A stretch of DNA of 37,285 bases from Candidatus Methanoplasma glyptotermitis (GTDB lineage: Archaea; Thermoplasmatota; Thermoplasmata; Methanomassiliicoccales; Methanomethylophilaceae), in NCBI GenBank assembly GCA_031267895.1, contig JAIRYF010000019.1, forward strand, positions 1 to 37,285. The letters are read 5' to 3'. The stretch's first letter is position 1. Every line of letters starts with the position of its first letter. Positions 14,700-37,285 of this stretch are shown here, piece by piece. A program made the position numbers and the translations under genes. The notes beneath the pieces were generated by a model. The model searched no databases and was not told where the DNA came from. It worked only from the letters and a program-made list of their open reading frames with translations.

Positions 14700-16837
14700 A
14701 TGAGCATCAAACTTCTGAGAGGAATCCTTTCCTCCGCCAAAACATCCGCCCGCCCATACAGGGGGGGGGGGGAAATTATAATTTCCCCGGCCGTCTGAAT
14801 ATAACAGTATTGTTTGCTGCTGCTCTGTTTCTCGCAGCAGCATTCTTTGTAACGTATTCCGAACCTGATGAATCGGATGCAGACATCGTAGGCAGCGGGA
14901 CCGAAGAAGATCCATGGTACTGCGGTCCCAGTGACAGCGACAGCGTGACAGCGACTCTTACGGATGACGGTGTTCTCACGATATCCGGTACCGGCAATAT
15001 GAACGATTACAGCAGTTATTCATCCACGCCGTGGTACAGCGTCAGGATGAACATAACCAGTATCATAATCGAATCAGGCGTGACATCCATCGGCGACTGG
15101 GCATTCTTTTACTGCATCAGCCTAAAAACCGTGACAATACCCAATGGCGTGACATCCATCGGCGAATATGCATTCTGTGGCTGCGAAAGCCTGACCTCCA
15201 TCGACATACCAGACAGCGTGATATTCATAGGCGACGTTGCATTCGCCGATTCCGGCCTGACATCTTTCGATATACCCAGCGGTATGAAAACCATCAGCAA
15301 TGGGGTATTCAGCGGCTCCGCCCTGCTCTCCATAGTCATACCGGACAGTGTGACATATATCGAATCCGGTGCATTCTACGGTTGCGCAAGCCTGACATCC
15401 ATTACAATACCGGACAGTGTGGAATTCCATGGATATGAGTCGGCAGGCGGAGAGATATTCTACGGCTGCACCAGCCTTGAAACCGTAACCGTAACAGGAG
15501 GACTTGCCGGTGAGGAGAAAACACTCTTAGAGGACGGAGTAATAGATCAGTTTTTCAAAGACGGAACGGACTGGAAACTGCCCAAAATGTACTCTGATCC
15601 TACTCCGATAAAGACTCTGAGATTGGAAGGTATCAGTTCCTCTGATTACGATCCCAACAACGAAGACGGAAAAGGAGGAATAGCCGGAGACGGAGGAAGA
15701 GAACTGTATTACAGCGATCTTGCATTCATATGGAATGAGGATACAGACGAATGGGATGAAGTCAGATATTCGGTATCGGGAACCATCTCGGTAACCGGCG
15801 GATCCGTATCCGCCGGGAACGTTACGGTATCTCTGATATCGTCTTCCGATCCGGATACCGTATATCAGGGAACAGTCGAAGAGAACGGAGACTACACCAT
15901 AACCGGAGTTCCTTACGGCACAACCGGAAACATAACGGTAACGCTGACGGGATACCATCAGACCGATACGGTATCGGTAACCGATCTGAAAAGCAACGAA
16001 ACAGGTAAGAGTATTGATCTGGAAATCAACGAGTACACCGTAACTCTCCCCGCAGAAGGAACGGAAGGAATATCCGGTTTCGAATACAGTATCAACGGCA
16101 GCGGTACCGCTGTGCCGTATACAGAACCGTTCAAAGTAAACCACGGAGATACTCTTACCGTAACTGCTCTGCTCTCCGAAGGATATGCATCCGTCTCATG
16201 GTCGGGATACCCCGAGTCTTCTGTGCAGAATCCCGGAGATGATTCGTTAACCGTACTGTCAGTACCGGGAAACATATCCTTAACGGTATATGCTTCCCTT
16301 ATACCCGTTACTCCGTCGCCTTCGGATACGTACCGTGTTGCATTCAGTTCCGGTTCCTACTATACAGTATATGCGGTGGACGGTTCTCCGATATCATCTT
16401 CATCAATCTCCGTAACGGAAGGAGGAAGTCTTACATTCGGAATACAGGCATCAGAAGGATATACTGCATATCCTTCCGTTGTTTCCGGAAGTGCAAAGAT
16501 TACTGCTCAGGCTGACGGACGGTATATGATATCCGATATACGTTCCGATATCCTTGTCGGTATAACCGTAAACACAGTATCCGGAGACGGTTCCGGTAAC
16601 GGCAGCAGCGGTTCAGGCACCGATATAGGGAGTAACGGAAATAGTTCCGGCAACAGCACCGGAAGCAGCGGATCGGGAAACGGAAGCATAAACAGCAACA
16701 GTACAGACAGTGAAAACAGTATATCTTACTGGATTCCTGTTCTCATAATTGCAGTGTTCCTTGTATGTATCGGAATTGCATGGATATTCCTGTTCTTCAT
16801 TAAACGCAGGAAGGATGAGGAAGAAGACGGCAATTGA
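14700..16837 (+). CDS. BspA-type LRR surface protein L3, G-tract gene, phase OFF as sequenced
   Basis: ATG at 14700 follows AAGGAG with ideal spacing and reads MSIKLLRGILSSAKTSARPY before the G12 tract. With 12 G this frame continues as GGGEIIISPAV and stops at 14796-14798. The body is open in another frame; 10 or 13 G would fuse them. A caller will probably use GTG 14690, which lies in the body frame but overlaps the SD itself, so it is unlikely to be the start. The body encodes NYNFPGRLN, a signal anchor (VLFAAALFLAAAFFVTYSE), the cap LTISGTGNM, about six LRR_5 repeats (15060-15500), a carboxypeptidase-regulatory-like domain (about 15765-16020), InlB-B-repeat-like modules, a Ser/Gly/Asn linker, one membrane helix (about 16725-16800) and KRRKDEEEDGN. 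Its C-terminal half is close to L1. Confidence 0.87.
14761..14772 (+). repeat. Homopolymeric tract G12 in the L3 leader
   Basis: Twelve G follow codon 20 (tac agg...) of the ATG 14700 frame. One more G (13), or two fewer (10), gives the continuous reading RGGGGNYNF or RGGGNYNF into the LRR body. Confidence 0.88.
14769..14788. repeat. Perfect 20-bp palindrome abutting the G tract (L3)
   Basis: Identical to the palindrome of L1 (GGGGAAATTATAATTTCCCC). In DNA it could extrude as a cruciform; in mRNA it could form an 8-bp stem with a UAUA loop. Confidence 0.85.
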
Positions 16838-18221: not shown

Positions 18222-18295
18222 TGGGGTCGGGAGAGGGACTCGAACCCCCGTATGCGGATCTGCAGTCCGCCACATAGCCTCTGTGTTATCCCGAC
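18222..18295 (-). tRNA. tRNA-Cys (GCA), CCA encoded
   Basis: On the minus strand the acceptor stem GTCGGGA pairs with TCCCGAC, the anticodon arm is GCGGA-CTGCAGA-TCCGC with anticodon GCA, and the T arm has stem GGGGG/CCCTC with loop TTCGAGT. CCA follows in the DNA. No intron in the anticodon loop. By this fold position 73 is C, while U73 is the usual cysteine identity base. A TATA-like TTTATTAC lies about 30 bases upstream (about 18320-18330). Confidence 0.93.
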
Positions 18296-18828
18296 GCTGA
18301 TCAACCCCATTGTCAGCAATGTAATAAACGTTTCGTACCGGGCTTTGGTGAAACCACGGAGACGGTTGATAGCCCATTGTGCAATTCACTACCGACGGAA
18401 GCTCCCCGAAAGGAATGGCCGGCCGAGGATGGAACCAATGCGCTCATCAGACGATTCTTTTAAGGAAAAAGATCTGCATTATTCAGATCACGTCAATGGT
18501 CTGGATAAGACAGGGTCCCCGGATACTTCTCAGAATACAGCAACAAGGATCCGGATGCAACTGGATTTTTCTGCCCAATGTACTCAGACACTTCGTCCGA
18601 GGCAGGGGAAGGAGCAGAAGAGGTGCGGCCGTCTACACGATATGTGCTGCTTTTGGCTGTGCGTGCCCGTACCGCAATCCGCACGGGCCTGCTGGGGGGG
18701 GGACATTGGATTATGATATATGCAATCAATATGGTTTGCACGCGAACGTGCCATGCATTATATATACATGGGTGCCAGTGCACATCCGTCGCTGTAAAAT
18801 ATGGCATCATACAATGAGGAGAAACCCC
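18296..18828. other. Region upstream of L4 with a hairpin and a non-coding G9 tract
   Basis: No supported gene. Features seen: hairpin GCCCGT (18665-18670) with ACGGGC (18683-18688), a run of nine G at 18694-18702, and the L4 promoter. A single copy of GGTGAAACCA at about 18347-18356 resembles the MITE end, but no partner end was found. Confidence 0.45.
18757..18766 (+). promoter_or_regulatory. TATA box of L4
   Basis: ATTATATATA lies about 67 bases before ATG 18829. The leader ends in atacaatgaggag, matching the SD context of L3 (atacaataaggag) and L5 (gtacaataaggag). Confidence 0.6.
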
Positions 18829-20663
18829 ATGAATACTAAACTTCTGAAAGGATTTATCTCCCTCATCGGAATCACTGAGGGGGGGGGGGGAATTATAATT
18901 TCCCCAGCCGTCTGAACATAACAGTCTTACTCGCAGTTGCTTTATTTCTTGCGGTGGCATTCTTTGTAACATACACGGAACCAAATGAATCGGATGCCGA
19001 CGGTGGCGGTTCTGCGGGACCGTCGGTGACATGGACTCTTACAGGCACTACTCTTACTATATCCGGTTCCGGTACCATGTATGATTATACTCCTAATTCT
19101 TATCCGCCGTGGCAAAGTGAGAAAGCAAATGTGCAGATAATCAACATAGAGCCGGGTGTGACGTCCATCGGCGATTATTCGTTCAATTGGCTTGAGAACC
19201 TGGTGTCCGTTACAATACCAAACAGCGTGACATCCGTCGGTGCCGGAGCATTCTATAACTGCTACAGACTCGAGTCGGTAACAATACCGAATGGTGTGAC
19301 ATCCATAAAGAATGAGACATTCAATGGATGCAACGGCCTCGAAACCGTTGTCATACCCGACAGCGCGGAATCCATCGGCTACTATGCATTCAACTACTGC
19401 AACAGCCCGACATCTATTACGATACCAAACAGCGTGAAGTCCATCGGTAAGTCGGCATTTGATGGTTGTGTCAAACTCGAATCCGTGACAATGTCCGACA
19501 GCATGGAAACCATCGGCGATATGGCATTCTATGGCTGCACCAAGCTAGAATCCGTGACGATACCCGACAGCGCAGAAACCATTGGCCGCTATGCGTTCTA
19601 TAACTGCTCCGGCCTGACTTCGATCGTCATACCCGACAGCGCAGTATTCTCGGGCACACACGTATTCGCAGGATGCTCCGTACTCAAAATCGTAACCGTC
19701 ACCGGCAGTTATGCAGACACGGACGGAGTAATAGGCAGGTATTTTAGCGCAGGCGGGGAATGGAAGCTGCCATACGCACCTTACGCCGCGGAATCTCTGA
19801 GGCTCAGAGATATCAGCTACAAAGAATACAGCCCCGACAACCTTGACCTGAAAGGAGGCATAGATGGAGACACAGGAAGAATGCTGACTTATAAAGACGA
19901 CAGTTATACGTGGGATACCGTATCAGAATCGTGGGGTTCTGCACGTTCCGTCTCCGGAACCCTTACCGTAAAGGGCGGATCGGCATCCGCCGGAAATGCG
20001 GATGTCTGTCTGGAATATCTAGGATTGAAGTACAATGCAAAAATCACCGGAACCCATTATAGCATAGAGAATGTGCCGAAGGGCGCGTCCGGTTATGTAA
20101 CGGCGGCAATCCCTGGATACTATCAGACGGCAATACCGTTCATACCCTCTCTGGACACAGACATATCGGGCGCGAATCTGGTTCTGACGGCATACGGAGA
20201 ACAGATACAGTACGCCGTGACATTCGGTTCCGGTCCGAACTATGCGGCATATGCAAACGGCTCTCCGGTATCTTCTCAGGTAACTGTTTCGGAAGGAGGA
20301 TATCTGACATTCGGAGTACTGGCATCCGAAGGATATTCCGCATCTCCGGCCGTATCCGGCAGCGCGAAGATTGTTCTTCAGACGGACGGATGGTACAGAA
20401 TATCAGAAATACATTCGGATGTTTACGTTACCGTAACGGTATCCGCAGATGCAGATAACGGTTCAGGAAGAGGTTCCGACAGCGGATCCGGTAGCAACTC
20501 GGATAACGGAAATGCAGACTCGGAAGGAGACTCCGGAAACGACGGAATGTTCTATGCTGTTTTTACTATCATAATTGCGGCATTTATTGTCTGCATAGCA
20601 GCATCGTTCATTTTGTTTATTATCAGGCGCAGGGAGGATGACAGGGAAGAGGACGGCAGATGA
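18829..20663 (+). CDS. BspA-type LRR surface protein L4, G-tract gene, phase OFF as sequenced
   Basis: ATG 18829 follows GAGGAG and reads MNTKLLKGFISLIGITE into the G12 tract. With 12 G it continues GGGGIIISPAV and stops at 18913-18915. With 10 or 13 G it would enter the body, which reads NYNFPSRLN, signal anchor (TVLLAVALFLAVAFFVTYTE), the cap LTISGSGTM, eight LRR_5 repeats (about 19150-19705), a carboxypeptidase-regulatory-like domain (about 19945-20190), one InlB-like module, a Gly/Ser/Asp linker, one membrane helix (about 20548-20620) and RRREDDREEDGR. Shorter than L1 and L3, with fewer C-terminal modules. An automatic call would start at the internal GTG 18954, inside the signal peptide. 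Stop TGA 20661-20663. Confidence 0.87.
18879..18890 (+). repeat. Homopolymeric tract G12 in the L4 leader
   Basis: Twelve G beginning at the third base of the GAG codon 17. The following palindrome is one A shorter than in L1 and L3 (GGGAATTATAATTTCCC), so it is no longer perfect. Frame restored at 10 or 13 G. Confidence 0.88.
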
Positions 20664-34770: not shown

Positions 34771-37285
34771 ATGAATATGAAATCTTCAAGAGAAATTATC
34801 TCTTCCCTGAGTGTAACACACAGGCAGGGGGGGGGGGAATTATAATTTTCCCCGCCGTCTGAACACGACGGTCTTGTTCGCTGTTGCTTTATTTCTGGCA
34901 GCAGCATTCTTTGTAACATACTCTGAACCGAATGAGTCGGATGCTGCCAATGGTGTCTTTGCATCCGGAGCAGTGTGGGACCTTACAGGCGACACTCTAA
35001 CGATAACCGGTCCCGGTGCTATGGATGATTTCTTGGTACAGGGAGCACCGTGGTTCGGCGACGGAGCGGACGTAACAAGCGTTGTAATCGGATCGGGCGT
35101 AACAACTATCGGCAACAATGCATTCGAAGGCTGCCTCAACCTGACATCCGTTGTCATACCGAGTAGTGTGACGACCATCGGTGAAAATGCATTCCGTGGG
35201 TGCGTAAGACTGACAACCATCGATATTAGCAACGTGACAAGCATCTATGAACATGCATTCTATGGGTGCCTCAGCCTGATATCCGTTGATCTTAGCAACG
35301 TGACATCTCTCTATAATGGTGCCTTTACGGCCTGCGAAAGCCTGAGATCTGTGACAATGCCCAGCAACATAACATTCATTGGCGACCGTATGTTTATAGG
35401 TTGTATAAGCTTGACGTCTATCGATTTTAGCAATGTAATAGCCATAGGCCAGGAAGCATTCTCTCGTACTGGTCTGATATCTGCTGATCTCAGCAATATG
35501 CAACACATCGGCGAGCGTGCATTCGCGGAGTGCTACAGCCTGATATCCGTTGATCTCAGCAATATGCAATCCATAGGTCGAGATGCATTTGGTAATTGTA
35601 CAAGCTTGACATCCGTTGATCTTAGCAACGTGGGTTACATAGGTGAAGGTGCATTCAAAGCGTGCTTCAGCCTGGCATCCGTCGTCATACCGAGTAGTGT
35701 GACGGTCATCAACGAATATACATTCGCCAGTTGCATCAGTTTGGAATCTATTGTTATTCCGGATACTGTGGTGATCGGTACCTATGCGTTCGCTGATTGC
35801 GATGTCCTGACATCCGTTACAGCGGTAATGGCAGTGACACCTCAGGGAGGAATATATATTGACCCGTTCGGACTCATCAGCGAGTATTTCATTCCTACCA
35901 GGACCTGGGTGCTGCCCGATGCACCTAAAGCCGTAACGTCTCTTACGTTTGGTATCCAAAGTACAGATTTTGATCCCAATAGCAACATAGCCGGAGACGT
36001 TGGAAGAGTGCTGCATTACACCGATGCTGACTTTGCGTGGGATGCAGGTACGAGTAGCTGGGTAGTTGCTGCGTGTTCGGTATCCGGACACCTGACGGTA
36101 AACGGAGGAGCATCCAACGCCAATGTTACGGTGTCTCTTGCGGGATACGCTGCGCTCACCGATTCGAACGGCGACTATACCATAGCAGTTCCTCTCGGAA
36201 CATCCGGAGGCATAGGCGCAGCGATAGCAGGATATCATCCGAGCGTTTTCGCGTCCGTAACATCGATAAGCGGAAACGAATCCGGCAAGGACATTACGCT
36301 GGACATCGACATGTTCTCGGTATCCGGAAGTGTAACGGTTAACGGATCGCCCGGTGTCAATATCCCTGTATCTCTTGTGGGATACACTGCGCTCACCGAT
36401 TCGTACGGCAGCTACATAATACTGAATGTTCCCTACGGAACGTCGGGAAGCATAACCGCGGCGGCAGCGGGATATGCTCAGGTGAGTATCCCCAGCGTAA
36501 CGCTGACAAGCGGAAACGCAACCAACCAGGACATTTTGCTTGTGTCAGGGCCTTTGATATTCGGACACCTGACGGTAAACGGAGGAACGGCATCCAACGT
36601 TGGAGTTATGGTAGTCCTATTCCCTTCGGGATTTGCGCTCACCGACGGGAACGGCAACTATACCATAGCAGTTCCTCTCGGAACATCCGGAAACATAACC
36701 GCATCCATTCCGGGATACACCCAAACGGGAACGGCATCCGTAACATCGATAAGCGGAAACGAATCCGGTAAGGACATTACGCTGGACATCGACATATTCT
36801 CGGTATACGGACGCCTGACGGTAGTGGGAGGAGCATCCAATGTCGGCGTGACAGTCTCTCTGGGAGCGTACACCGCAGTCACCGATGCAAGCGGTGACTA
36901 CACCATAACCGGAGTCCCTTACGGAACATCCGGAAACATAACCGCATCCGTACCCGGATACGTTCAGACGGTTACTCTGAATGTAGCACCGCTGACTTAC
37001 CATCTTTTCAATCAGAATCTTAGGTTTTTGCCAGGGTTTTCAGTATCTGGTAATCTCGCGGTAAACGGAGGAGCATCCAACGCCAATGTTACGGTGTCTC
37101 TTGCGGGATACGCTGCGCTCACCGACGGGAGTGGCGACTACATAATCGCAGTTCGTCCCGGAACATCCGGAAGCATAACCGCATCCATTGCGGGATACAC
37201 CCAAACGGGAACGGCATCCGTAACATCGATAAGCGGAAACGAATCCGGTAAGGATATTGCGCTGACGCTGAACGCGTATGTTTAC
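34771..37285 (+). CDS. BspA-type LRR surface protein L5, G-tract gene, phase OFF as sequenced, 3' partial
   Basis: ATG 34771 follows AAGGAG and reads MNMKSSREIISSLSVTHRQ into a G11 tract. With 11 G it stops at 34843-34845; with 10 or 13 G it would enter the body (frame of 34838), which stays open to the window end. The body reads NYNFPRRLN, signal anchor (TVLFAVALFLAAAFFVTYSE), the cap LTITGPGAM, about eleven LRR_5 repeats (35095-35825; several shortened to 21-22 residues with DLSN instead of IPNS), a spacer (to about 36070), then five tandem carboxypeptidase-regulatory-like modules of about 80 residues. The end lies outside the window. A long minus-strand open frame over 34997-36238 is a by-product of codon bias. 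Confidence 0.86.
34827..34837 (+). repeat. Homopolymeric tract G11 in the L5 leader
   Basis: Eleven G from the last base of a CAG codon. The adjoining palindrome is altered to GGGGAATTATAATTTTCCCC. Frame restored at 10 or 13 G, so the sequenced state is one deletion from ON. Confidence 0.88.
36076..37285 (+). repeat. Five tandem 240-bp repeats in L5
   Basis: Units begin near 36076, 36316, 36556, 36799 and 37039, each encoding SVSGxLTVNGGASNxxVTVS and then a GTSGxITA..GY pattern. DNA identity between units 1 and 5 is very high (for example gtgtctcttgcgggatacgc in both), so recent duplication or conversion is likely. Unit number may vary between strains. Confidence 0.8.

Follow-up and report, generated by a model that had tools for sequence, protein, structure and literature searches.

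Phase variation by simple sequence repeats has been studied almost only in bacteria. In the Opa genes of Neisseria, a pentamer repeat prone to slippage lies close to the beginning of each reading frame. They form a family of several paralogous surface proteins, each phase-variable, for which a total of about 11 genes is given in the cited account (PMC3745409). In the Campylobacter phasome, as described in PMC6321876, many poly-G runs, mostly located within genes, turn expression ON or OFF by reading frame; these tracts peak at 9-10 residues, and C. jejuni strains have 18-39 phase-variable genes. In the NgoAV type I system of Neisseria gonorrhoeae, hsdS is divided by a poly-G run of 6-9 residues, so that the specificity subunit is made either truncated or at full length depending on the frame, according to PMC9577141. 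For archaea, a 2025 review leaves the distribution of phase variation to future work (PMC11868660), and a comparison of 99 genomes, including 18 from archaea, reports that poly-A and poly-T tracts are overrepresented and placed toward the 5′ ends of genes, with poly-C and poly-G tracts lacking this placement (PMC2831843). Our searches of open-licence full texts yielded no report of simple-repeat phase variation in an archaeon.

The locus considered here, designated L4, and the gene family to which it belongs probably represent this known bacterial mechanism, simple-sequence phase variation by poly-G, operating genome-wide in an archaeon, as judged from the arrangement of their sequences. Apart from the archaeal host, the system differs from that of Campylobacter in that its runs peak at 11-12 instead of the 9-10 given in PMC6321876, and in that 43 runs occupy one conserved junction of one family, in a register which is mostly OFF at the commonest lengths. 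In comparison with the roughly 11 Opa genes of the cited account, there are 43 or more copies with poly-G. Leucine-rich repeat (LRR) genes have been recorded in host-associated taxa of the Methanomassiliicoccales at an average of 1.5 LRR gene clusters (PMC7883539); LRR_5 is likewise found in L4, and compared with the average given in that source, the junction profile described below is matched 52 times in the present genome.

The window, by which we mean the whole analysed stretch of 37,285 nucleotides, is part of a 1.72-Mb genome assembled in 72 contigs with 97.85% completeness. It belongs to an archaeal methanogen, since TBP (E=6.6e-64) and RNase L inhibitor (RLI) domain genes are present in the window and methyl-coenzyme M reductase in the genome (MCR_alpha match, E=1.2e-60). 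Its gene content and size suggest a member of the Methanomassiliicoccales. L4 lies on the forward strand, and its upstream part consists of a TATA-like box, TTATATATA (18758-18766), about 70 bases 5′ of an ATG at 18829, and a Shine-Dalgarno sequence, GAGGAG (18816-18821), ending seven bases ahead of it. The ATG frame (18829-18915) is 28 residues long, MNTKLLKGFISLIGITEGGGGIIISPAV, with 17 codons ahead of the G codons; it enters a homopolymer of 12 G (18879-18890), which starts 50 bases after the ATG, inside the coding frame and near its start, and ends at a TGA stop at 18913-18915. The ATG with its GAGGAG, the 17 codons, the 12 G and the stop agreed base for base with the sequence-only reading that had drawn attention to the locus, as did the opening of the body with NYNFP: the body frame from 18891 reads NYNFPSRLN and continues for 590 residues to the stop at 20663, with the N-terminal sequence NYNFPSRLNITVLLAVALFLAVAFFVTY. 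This body (18891-20663) is composed of a signal-peptide-like segment, BspA-type LRR_5 repeats (Pfam PF13306, E=4.4e-64, 214.5 bits versus a curated cut-off of 27.7), a C-terminal hydrophobic segment and a basic tail, the signal and C-terminal anchor segments being hydrophobic stretches judged by eye. Among run lengths from 9 to 15, only 10 or 13 G place the body in frame with the ATG.

A near-palindrome, GGGGAATTATAATTTCCCC, extends across the end of the G-run (18887-18905); its counterpart in the paralog L3 (14769-14788) is perfect, GGGGAAATTATAATTTCCCC, the L4 version being one A shorter. As RNA, positions 18879-18912 of L4 fold with a z-score of -2.14 (5 of 200 shuffles are equally stable), and across three copies the junction hairpin gives moderate z-scores, from -1.4 to -2.6. 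The palindrome could act as an RNA hairpin, as a slippage enhancer or as a site of recombination between paralogs. A separate run of 9 G is found at 18694-18702, between a tRNA gene (18225-18295, minus strand) and the L4 TATA box, 127 bases 5′ of the ATG and outside any clear gene.

Four paralogs of L4 are located in the window, all on the forward strand. L1 has 12 G at positions 13-24, at the contig end, with its body at 26-2341 and its upstream start outside the contig, and L2 (6014-8296) is an LRR_5 gene lacking a tract. L3 (14700-16837) starts with ATG at 14700 and has 12 G at 14761-14772 and a body from 14774; it is out of frame and, as L4, belongs to the class needing 10 or 13 G. L5 (34771-37285) has its ATG at 34771, 11 G at 34827-34837 and a body occupying the rest of the window from 34838 on, and is also out of frame. 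Overall, the window contains 21 overlapping G8 words; 100 shuffles gave 1.12 on average and never as many as 21. The ends of the OFF peptides of L3 and L4 had been noted as nearly the same, and the L3 frame does end with RGGGEIIISPAV; the shared IIISPAV is, however, uninformative, as it is merely an alternative frame of conserved junction DNA.

We inspected all 99 runs of at least 8 G in the genome together with their flanks. At one junction, which encodes N-[YSF]-[NDEKI]-F-[PS] or a frame variant thereof followed by a shared signal-peptide-like segment, 43 such runs were found. This family size is a minimum: two additional copies, L058 and L071, both out of frame, end 9 residues past the run at contig ends and were missed by the filter, and three more members without a run of at least 8 G stand outside the counts, namely L116 (6 G), L115 (interrupted run) and L118 (cut by a contig end). 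Frames could be scored in 41 of the 43; L073 and the window run at 13-24, which have no upstream sequence, were left out.

The upstream layout of L4 is common to most of its paralogs. An upstream ATG with a Shine-Dalgarno match of at least 4 bases is present in 38 of 41, and a TATA-like word occurs 45-100 bases ahead of the start in 35 of 41, as compared with 44 of 6400 random body windows, 2 of 123 windows located further upstream, and none of the 41 stretches of 55 bases that follow the run. Four paralogs read from the same upstream ATG in frame through the glycines of the G-run into NFDFP or NYNFP (one of them, L055, is cut by a contig end), and L115, in which two C break the G-run, likewise reads in frame from an ATG of this kind (MNMKYSKGTLSSPKPQMGGGRKNYNFPSRLS). 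These observations support ATG 18829 as the probable true start of L4, as the sequence-only reading had proposed in calling it hidden from gene callers. The in-frame NYNFP homologs which that reading looked for do exist among the paralogs; a direct comparison with an L4 ortholog was not possible across the genus, because the 50-position junction profile matched in only 2 of 17 genus genomes, with 52 matches in the host and two in G008, and in neither G008 gene does the corresponding position carry 8 or more G in a row. Two scans against named genomes and one against viral contigs yielded no second copy of the L4 locus.

Could translation of L4 instead begin inside the body, at GTG 18954 or by re-initiation past the upstream stop, with the upstream frame serving as a leader peptide? 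A mechanical ORF list, which is not a real gene caller, does start L4 at GTG 18954-18956 to give 569 aa, as had been anticipated for automatic annotation. That codon, however, lies within the hydrophobic segment and has no ribosome site ahead of it, and its product would be without the hydrophobic export segment. Neither is there a ribosome site ahead of any in-frame start in the first 26 body codons in any of the 43 copies, and these potential starts lack conservation, whereas the tract-less paralogs that do start there, L117 and L120, have a Shine-Dalgarno directly ahead of an ATG at the signal peptide. L4 thus lacks the internal ribosome site that would have counted against the sequence-only reading. 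We therefore regard an internal start as highly improbable.

As assembled, paralogs are present in both states, with 4 of 41 in frame (L037 with 13 G, L055 with 10 G, and L034 and one copy in L081 with 11 G) and 37 out of frame. L116, read by eye, is out of frame from its upstream ATG with only 6 G. Tract lengths in the family are 11 (20 copies), 12 (19 copies), 10 and 13 (one copy each), and the length needed for frame is 10 or 13 in 36 of 41 (L4 and 35 others), 11 in 3 and 12 in 2, so that most copies are shut at the commonest tract lengths. The in-frame fraction is below one third (binomial 0.0007, for copies that are related to each other). The number in frame also coincides with the 4.1 copies predicted from the class and length marginals, so that it describes the family and is no evidence of lengths adjusted for individual genes. 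In 37 of 43 copies both alternative frames stop no more than 8 codons after the run. The OFF state of L4 is that of one assembly, and it is from this overall pattern that we infer switching in cells.

The excess of out-of-frame copies, together with the short bodies of L079 and L045 (55 and 138 residues), might suggest a decayed family of frameshifted pseudogenes left by duplication. However, the bodies are mostly long and open, the frame is broken at the G-run and not at scattered positions, and the bodies are under constraint, with a median dN/dS of 0.47 and none of 350 pairs reaching 1 (350 of 451 body pairs were in the usable synonymous range; the pairs are non-independent and mix in-frame with out-of-frame copies). 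Decay of this kind can hardly be credited.

The same constraint on bodies of which 37 of 41 are out of frame, and the run of 11-12 G directly followed by a possible hairpin, are what one would also expect from recoding, in which RNA polymerase slippage or ribosomal frameshifting at the G-run, aided by the GGGG...CCCC hairpin, would yield some full-length protein at any run length. Within one register, copies with 11 G and copies with 12 G would have to be shifted in opposite directions, which no single programmed ribosomal frameshift could achieve, although transcript slippage could serve both. Moreover, the paralogs with an interrupted run or no tract are in frame unaided, and we consider recoding unlikely. 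As for the run lengths themselves, many runs are situated near contig ends (e.g., C46:12, C49:54, C61:33 and C62:23) and 36 of 41 copies share the 10-or-13 register, as if the true runs were mostly longer, for instance 13 G and in frame, and had been shortened in a short-read consensus of ordinary, constantly expressed genes. Against such an error, all lengths from 10 to 13 G occur among near-identical upstream sequences, the non-family runs of at least 10 G show the same lengths of 10-13, and the in-frame 13-G copy (L037) was assembled normally; even if off by one base, the runs would still be long slip-prone tracts within coding sequence. This explanation, with recoding the chief rival, appears quite improbable, and phase variation is the reading that we follow below.

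The upstream mini-ORF showed no frame-specific coding signal (pS 0.235, pN 0.151, nearly equal in the two shifted frames). Junctions with an extra A are paired with upstream lengths that keep the register in 19 of 20 cases, versus 3 of 21 otherwise (Fisher 1.3e-7 when members are counted); over distinct length combinations the association is weak (Fisher 0.12), and a single class holds 10 of the 15 combinations (corrected value 0.026).

In the genome as a whole, the 99 G-runs of 8 or more include 36 of 11, 35 of 12, 18 of 10, 5 of 13 and 5 shorter ones. Thus, 94 runs (51 + 43) reach at least 10 G, where a first-order model derived from the window alone predicts about 2.8. Among 61 genomes, the host included, the next richest in such runs are three of the same genus, with 63, 37 and 21, and 18 of the 61 have none. 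The two other species of the genus with 63 and 37 runs (G014 and G003, loci L124-L183) carry them mostly in different genes. In the survey of these two related species, for which 30 loci per species were read out of 64 and 42 runs of at least 9, the runs were found in other genes, in both in-frame and shifted states.

Outside the LRR family, runs were found in two restriction-modification genes of the host. A D12/Dam-type adenine methylase has 11 G (L008:502-512) just ahead of its family-matching part, which is out of frame. Homologs of this methylase were matched in 5 of 17 genomes, host included, and in the stretch examined, G or C runs in those of G007 (42% identical) and G003 never exceed 6 bases, so that the G-run is not general to the methylase family. 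In a type I hsdS gene, 10 G (L010:2499-2508, minus strand) lie between two Methylase_S specificity domains and put them out of frame, an arrangement similar to that of NgoAV, from which it differs in its archaeal host, in having 10 G versus the 6-9 given for NgoAV in PMC9577141, and in being known from sequence alone. Further runs are located in two periplasmic-binding-type proteins, one CBM_X2 protein and two LRR proteins outside the junction family. The runs hence occur in surface-protein and restriction-modification genes, types typical of bacterial phase variation, which is said as a tally and not as an enrichment statistic. One more candidate, L025, was rejected as a restriction enzyme, its only Pfam match being to SWI2_SNF2 below the cut-off.

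In addition, ORFs of 74-95 residues in L053, L061, L084 and L170, the last from another species, resemble ribbon-helix-helix regulators by eye and end at a run of 11-12 G. A second repeated family, represented by L004, L021 and L041 and situated partly at contig ends, has G-runs ahead of a shared segment, which is LLPAFNEEQEYPCNCN in L004 and L021 and takes a diverged form in L041.

Searches for mismatch repair proteins gave no profile matches to MutS_V or NucS_C in the host genome, while 11 and 7 of 14 control genomes, respectively, were positive. Over the whole set, MutS_V exceeded the cut-off in 0 of 61 genomes and NucS_C in 1 of 61. Missing mismatch repair was rejected as the specific cause of tract richness, since it is order-wide and extends to genomes without any run of at least 10. 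The absence of detectable MutS/NucS permits slippage and does not single out tract-rich genomes. The archaeal polymerases PolB and PolD are described in PMC4134008 as slipping in vitro when the template carries a hairpin and short direct repeats.

In the mechanism that we propose, slipped-strand changes during replication would alter the length of the poly-G run between the upstream start and the signal peptide. Each upstream unit would comprise a TATA box, a Shine-Dalgarno sequence and an ATG, with about 17-23 codons ahead of the run. At 10 or 13 G, the ATG would be read into the exported LRR protein (ON), while at 11 or 12 G translation, in either of the other frames, would end at a stop only a few codons further on (OFF). 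With most runs at 11 or 12 G and a requirement for 10 or 13 in the majority of copies, few of them would be readable at any one time. We infer that the tracts change in length in the course of growth, that the frame governs expression, and that the system serves stochastic variation of surface proteins, to which the methylase and HsdS runs may add variation of DNA methylation. A more far-reaching version can be put forward only tentatively, namely that the poly-G phasome of this archaeon is at least as large as that of C. jejuni, with its principal surface-protein family, over 40 antigens in a common register, switched OFF at the 11 or 12 G that mutation favours and ON only at the rarer 10 or 13, so that a small random subset is displayed at any time, and with methylation varied through the Dam-type methylase and HsdS.

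If the proposed mechanism is correct, simple-sequence phase variation would extend to a domain in which replication relies on different polymerases and, in the present case, MutS/NucS are not detectable. It would then become testable whether slippage alone suffices for archaeal contingency loci, and whether surface display in a methanogen is stochastic. A practical consequence would be that, in assemblies of such archaea, genes for surface proteins and DNA methylases may be mis-annotated or overlooked.
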